Assembly (NCBI RefSeq): GCF_963675165.1
Contig: NC_087379.1
Span: 6,472,839-6,536,838, forward strand
DNA length: 64,000 nucleotides
Reading direction: 5' to 3'
From: Halichondria panicea
Lineage: Eukaryota; Porifera; Demospongiae; Suberitida; Halichondriidae
Part shown: piece by piece, positions 17,514 through 55,909 of the stretch
Layout of the letters: every line of letters begins with the position of its first letter
Numbering within the stretch: position 1 is the stretch's first letter
Position numbers and translations under genes: made by a program
The notes under the pieces: generated by a model
Told to the model about the DNA's origin: nothing
Seen by the model: only the letters and a program-made list of their open reading frames with translations
Databases searched by the model: none

Positions 17514-55909
<38,396 letters not shown>

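Follow-up and report, generated by a model that had tools for sequence, protein, structure and literature searches.

Multi-SRCR genes of sponges are known to occur in tandem arrays (PMC10855680, PMC8242945). As far as the available excerpts of these two reports go, such genes combine SRCR domains with fibronectin III and a membrane segment and are found as duplicates with matching exon structure, and the locus of Halichondria panicea described here resembles them in both respects. It differs in that the sponge studied there mostly has three exons per SRCR domain, where two are the rule here, and in that the genes of a published cluster hold 2-6 SRCR domains, compared with 41 here; no stop of the kind discussed below is described in those excerpts (PMC10855680, PMC8242945). 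Another sponge membrane protein with SRCR domains, the putative aggregation receptor of Geodia cydonium, is set apart by its description, since it carries short consensus repeats, while the stretch that we scanned contains fibronectin III (fn3) matches and none of these repeats (PMC4557014, in part).

Two mammalian systems offer further comparison, again from partial texts. Bovine WC1 also consists of SRCR arrays and has isoforms without whole SRCR domains or without the transmembrane region; premature stops occur in some of its sequences, but the two stops found in cDNA lie in the cytoplasmic tail, unlike the one here, and it is splicing, rather than a stop within an SRCR domain, that produces the isoforms (PMC2681482). 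In human DMBT1, allelic length variation of the SRCR array, from 8 to 13 domains, is common and reduces bacterial binding without abolishing it, but this protein is secreted and its variation is due to deletions, not to a stop codon (PMC5435793). According to the same partial sources, tandem SRCR expansion in sponges (PMC10855680) and variation of SRCR proteins between individuals (PMC5435793 and, for expression, PMC8242945) are thus both known, the latter including a report of individual-specific receptor expression in Halichondria panicea itself (PMC8242945).

Here we have analysed a window of 64,000 nucleotides of this sponge (NC_087379.1, positions 6,472,839 to 6,536,838), in which a very large SRCR gene is interrupted by one in-frame TAG. 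We argue that this is probably a recent nonsense change, likely still segregating, in one of two tandem genes for putative SRCR/fibronectin-III transmembrane receptors.

Materials and methods

SRCR domains were located with a local profile built from nine stretches: two from this gene, three from its twin copy (including the twin's SRCR 30) and four from a neighbouring gene at the start of the window, two of which include an intron read in frame. That part of the window (1-4832, minus strand) holds one or more further SRCR genes, with a 453-residue open frame of intron-less SRCR domains. Splice sites were chosen by a simple score with phase 1 imposed, and the acceptor of exon 33 and the donor of exon 58 were corrected by hand. 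The two halves of SRCR 30 were joined, and in both copies a half-domain and a whole domain sharing an exon were merged. Ka/Ks was calculated pairwise between the twins by the Nei-Gojobori method, with bootstrap over exons.

Results

The gene begins with a signal-peptide-like start, continues with 41 SRCR domains and a fibronectin-III-like part and ends in a hydrophobic stretch, the putative anchor (Table 1). Our model comprises 78 SRCR exons per copy, each preceded by AG and followed by GT, with 29 domains before the TAG exon and 11 after it. The local profile gives 80 half or whole SRCR matches in this gene and 79 in the twin, the extra match being due to the stop, which splits SRCR 30. When seven C-terminal segments were scanned with Pfam, one passed the fn3 cut-off of 25 bits by a narrow margin (25.1), a further two had fn3 matches that fell short of it, three gave no match and the hydrophobic one matched below the cut-off only. 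The putative signal peptide and membrane segment were recognised by eye, and both are conserved in the twin.

Table 1. Coordinates, within the window, of the features of the TAG-bearing SRCR gene
Feature	Position	Strand	Remarks
Signal-peptide-like start, near 55.9 kb	55832..55912	-	by eye; kept in twin
Upstream SRCR block, SRCR 1-29	31749..54072	-	55 exons
SRCR 30 exon, whole domain	31223..31558	-	336 nt; phase 1 at both ends
In-frame TAG	31404..31406	-	residue 51 of 111 in SRCR 30 exon; twin has CAG (Gln)
Downstream SRCR block, SRCR 31-41	22516..30995	-	22 exons, open and constrained
Conserved segments with fibronectin-III-like parts	19680..22476	-	fn3 matches
Hydrophobic stretch, then basic residues, putative membrane anchor	19085..19270	-	by eye

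The stop which an earlier note had reported in SRCR 30 is present: it reads CTA on the plus strand, and CRQLGF before it and the 12 residues quoted after it lie in one frame. Its numbering as codon 3235 agrees with our count of 3213 from the first SRCR exon plus about 22 from the signal-peptide-like start, the junction between the two being putative. SRCR 30, domain 30 of 41 in our model, is intron-less as described, and the exon which holds it is flanked by an acceptor AG and a donor GTATGT. Both halves of the domain exceed the curated cut-off of Pfam SRCR (PF00530, 26.1 bits), with 47.5 and 29.2 bits, as does the twin's SRCR 30 with 79.7, which places them in the SRCR superfamily. The note's statement that every other exon is open also holds for the SRCR part of this copy, where the TAG is the sole stop among the 78 exons. 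The corresponding 78 exons of the twin contain none, and the two copies together have one TAG, no TAA and no TGA in 8,850 codons. The genome, of 131 Mb, contains very many SRCR genes. A genome-wide search found a stop in one of 49 near-full SRCR domains, namely in SRCR 30 of this gene; these 49 were picked among the matches listed (213 reported, the best candidates scored) as nearly whole domains within 309 bases, that is, without an intron-sized insert.

The twin is found 47.3 kb from this gene, outside the window and in the same orientation, and shares all 78 SRCR exons with it. In the twin, SRCR 30 is likewise encoded by a single exon, with 95.5% identity and CAG in place of TAG; leaving out the stop, the two exons differ by 10 synonymous and 4 non-synonymous changes. 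Since SRCR 30 is a single exon in both copies, its intron was already missing when the gene was duplicated, and this absence has nothing to do with the stop. AG and GT are kept in all 78 exon pairs, and 77 of the pairs are equal in length, the remaining one differing by 6 nt in frame (compared after one mispicked donor had been corrected). A DNA search of the assembly revealed only the window itself and the twin, and no third close copy or other haplotype, the third row of this search being a 19-base piece beside the twin; among the protein matches listed, the next by score has 49% identity. The host DNA had no match in the prokaryote and viral collections.

The introns of the two copies are unevenly similar. 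Those flanking the TAG exon agree at 83% and 82% of their aligned bases, and thus no recent exchange is seen at this exon. For introns 28, 29, 33, 35-38, 47 and a small number of others the identity is 93-98%, so that between 38108 and 47610 near-identical introns occur in patches amid diverged ones (50-80%). This mosaic suggests gene conversion between the tandem copies. Such probable conversion tracts weaken the estimates of branch age given below.

How intact is the copy with the stop? Ka/Ks is 0.290 (0.218-0.369) for the 55 exons that precede the TAG exon, and 0.144 (0.097-0.199) if only the 27 just before the stop (exons 28-54) are taken. The 22 exons after the stop give 0.162 (0.076-0.299), or 0.109 (0.063-0.163) for the 21 that remain without the outlier exon 59, whereas a value near 0.55 would be expected if one branch had been free of constraint since the duplication. 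The C-terminal part, taken without the anchor segment, gives 0.188 (0.044-0.478), but its 8 segments hold 16 changes, too few to weigh. In exon 59 (29023-29190), the second half of SRCR 32, there are 19.5 non-synonymous against 5.5 synonymous changes; the exon contains the 6-nt length difference between the copies and has four cysteines in both. It could mark relaxed constraint, and either copy may be the one that changed there.

On a branch neutral since the duplication (Ks 0.12), 26.2 stops would be expected, and one is observed. About 125 frameshifts would be expected and none is observed. This expectation comes from 66 of the 77 introns, after exclusion of 11 that were too unequal or of excessive length, and is a rough one, since poor alignment of several introns leads the aligner to insert extra gaps. 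The 78 SRCR exons of this copy contain no further lesion, and their splice sites are intact. All 22 downstream half-domains were found in both copies, and their profile scores add up to equal totals, 1137.9 bits for the TAG copy and 1140.2 bits for the twin. The copies have 320 cysteines in common, two more are found in the twin only, both in the upstream exon 23, and no cysteine of the twin is lost downstream of the stop. Neither accumulated lesions nor lost constraint, the marks of a pseudogene, were thus found. One stop against about 26 expected, no frameshift and a low downstream Ka/Ks mean that this is not an old pseudogene and that the stop is either recent or bypassed. If the gene has been out of use since the TAG arose, that period covers no more than about 11% of the branch as judged by the stops alone, or 2% by the indel figure if that is trusted, both bounds presupposing no conversion from the twin.

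Discussion

The earlier note had listed four options (sequencing error, a null or segregating allele, a secreted isoform and readthrough) without choosing among them. The null allele, if recent, fits best, a sequencing error is less likely and readthrough is without support. We therefore consider a young nonsense allele the probable explanation. The simplest route would be a single C-to-T change turning a Gln codon, CAG, into TAG in a gene that had been working until recently and, by parsimony, the TAG copy would be the one that changed. The allele is probably segregating or newly arisen, and a null allele would be tolerated thanks to a twin that is nearly complete and to the many further SRCR genes. 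What would become of its mRNA? A further 22 SRCR exons follow the stop, so that exon junctions lie well downstream of it, and the genome encodes UPF1 and UPF3 domains; judged from these features, the transcript is expected to be a target of nonsense-mediated decay (NMD) and would be degraded. Otherwise, the product would have 29.5 SRCR domains and no membrane anchor. The secreted isoform proposed before is thus conceivable, but NMD is to be expected before it.

Nonsense alleles in one member of a tandem receptor pair are ordinary, and this gene adds a new example. Its value lies in being a clean case: a disabling change of very recent date in a receptor gene of immune type that is huge, duplicated and, to all appearance, intact elsewhere, with a close twin as reference. 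If the TAG segregates, it bears on how individual differences arise in animals whose SRCR repertoires are large. Automatic annotation may also split this gene in two at the stop.

It is unlikely, though worth considering, that the TAG is a base error of sequencing or assembly which replaces a sense codon like that of the twin. The lesion stands alone in an otherwise intact gene and the twin has CAG at this place, as such an error would predict. The usual long-read error, however, is a homopolymer indel, and the TAG is a single substitution; nor does it belong to a cluster of odd changes, the rest of the exon differing from the twin by the few, mostly synonymous changes given above.

Could the stop be real and be bypassed by splicing? 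The likeliest bypass is skipping of the SRCR 30 exon, which would remove exactly one SRCR domain, keep the frame and leave a membrane receptor of 40 domains; the earlier note did not name this route to a functional protein among its options. Only SRCR 24 and SRCR 30 are alone and whole in one exon, and since such exons make up 5.0% of the SRCR coding length, the odds of a stop landing there by chance are modest. Constraint also persists downstream, and bovine WC1 transcripts, in the part of that report available, are often without whole SRCR domains (PMC2681482). However, a very young stop accounts for the constraint too, the exon is conserved in both copies, and its splice sites (acceptor score 3.8; donor score 8.2, taken from the identical GTATGT of the twin) are normal in appearance and give no hint of skipping. 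We regard this bypass as quite improbable. Very doubtful, too, is the idea that the TAG has been retained because the gene makes two products, a soluble one of 29.5 domains and an anchored bypass form, most plausibly through skipping of SRCR 30, with the stop, placed in a domain that can be spared, acting as a switch between them.

The earlier statement that no donor exists for an intron removing the TAG was too strong, since a donor-like GT at 31435 scores 5.0, where the real donors of this copy have a minimum of 3.0 and a median of 6.2. Altogether, the TAG could be removed by 27 cryptic introns that keep the frame and are 45 nt or longer. We rejected this solution, as each of the best 12 of the 27 cuts away part of the domain; the cryptic acceptors of these 12 score 0.8-3.2, and the real acceptors have a median of 3.75. 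The stop is part of a TTTTAG that resembles an acceptor (31403, score 3.2), and the strongest donor, at 31435, lies 32 nt from it and out of frame with that site.

It is highly improbable that the stop is read through in translation or that A-to-I editing turns UAG into UGG. A C follows the TAG directly, and TAG followed by C is a leaky context; the residue at the aligned position varies among SRCR domains (Ser, Gly, Pro, Asn, Ala and others), so that an inserted residue would be tolerated. Beyond the C we found nothing in favour of the readthrough option of the earlier note. The RNA after the stop is unremarkable in its fold (z 0.30, with 120 of 200 shuffles as stable), and the twin, the sole close relative compared, has a sense codon, whereas programmed readthrough would show a stop conserved in relatives with constraint on both sides. 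A literature search on stop codon readthrough in sponge SRCR genes returned no paper. General reassignment of UAG as a sense codon was rejected, with one TAG against 337 Gln codons. For editing, Trp is absent at the aligned position among the domains listed, and a local duplex was rejected, as none of the five inverted-repeat pairs (arms of at least 14) between 30000 and 33000 lies over the TAG. In the same region, two adjacent intron hairpins (30463-30510 and 30516-30552) have arms of 22 and 17 nt that are 95% and 94% complementary.

A long-dead pseudogene copy, suggested at first sight by the in-frame stop in one of two tandem copies and by a single downstream exon that changes fast, and allowed for by the earlier note as pseudogenisation, is hardly tenable in view of the stop and frameshift counts and a downstream Ka/Ks of 0.11-0.16, and is refuted unless the twin has lately overwritten almost all of this copy by conversion, an event disfavoured because the introns beside the TAG exon are diverged.

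At the other end of the gene, in exons 1-9 (50676-53718), the twins differ by 117.0 non-synonymous against 56.0 synonymous changes, unlike in the rest of the gene. These N-terminal SRCR domains are fast-evolving and perhaps face the ligand.
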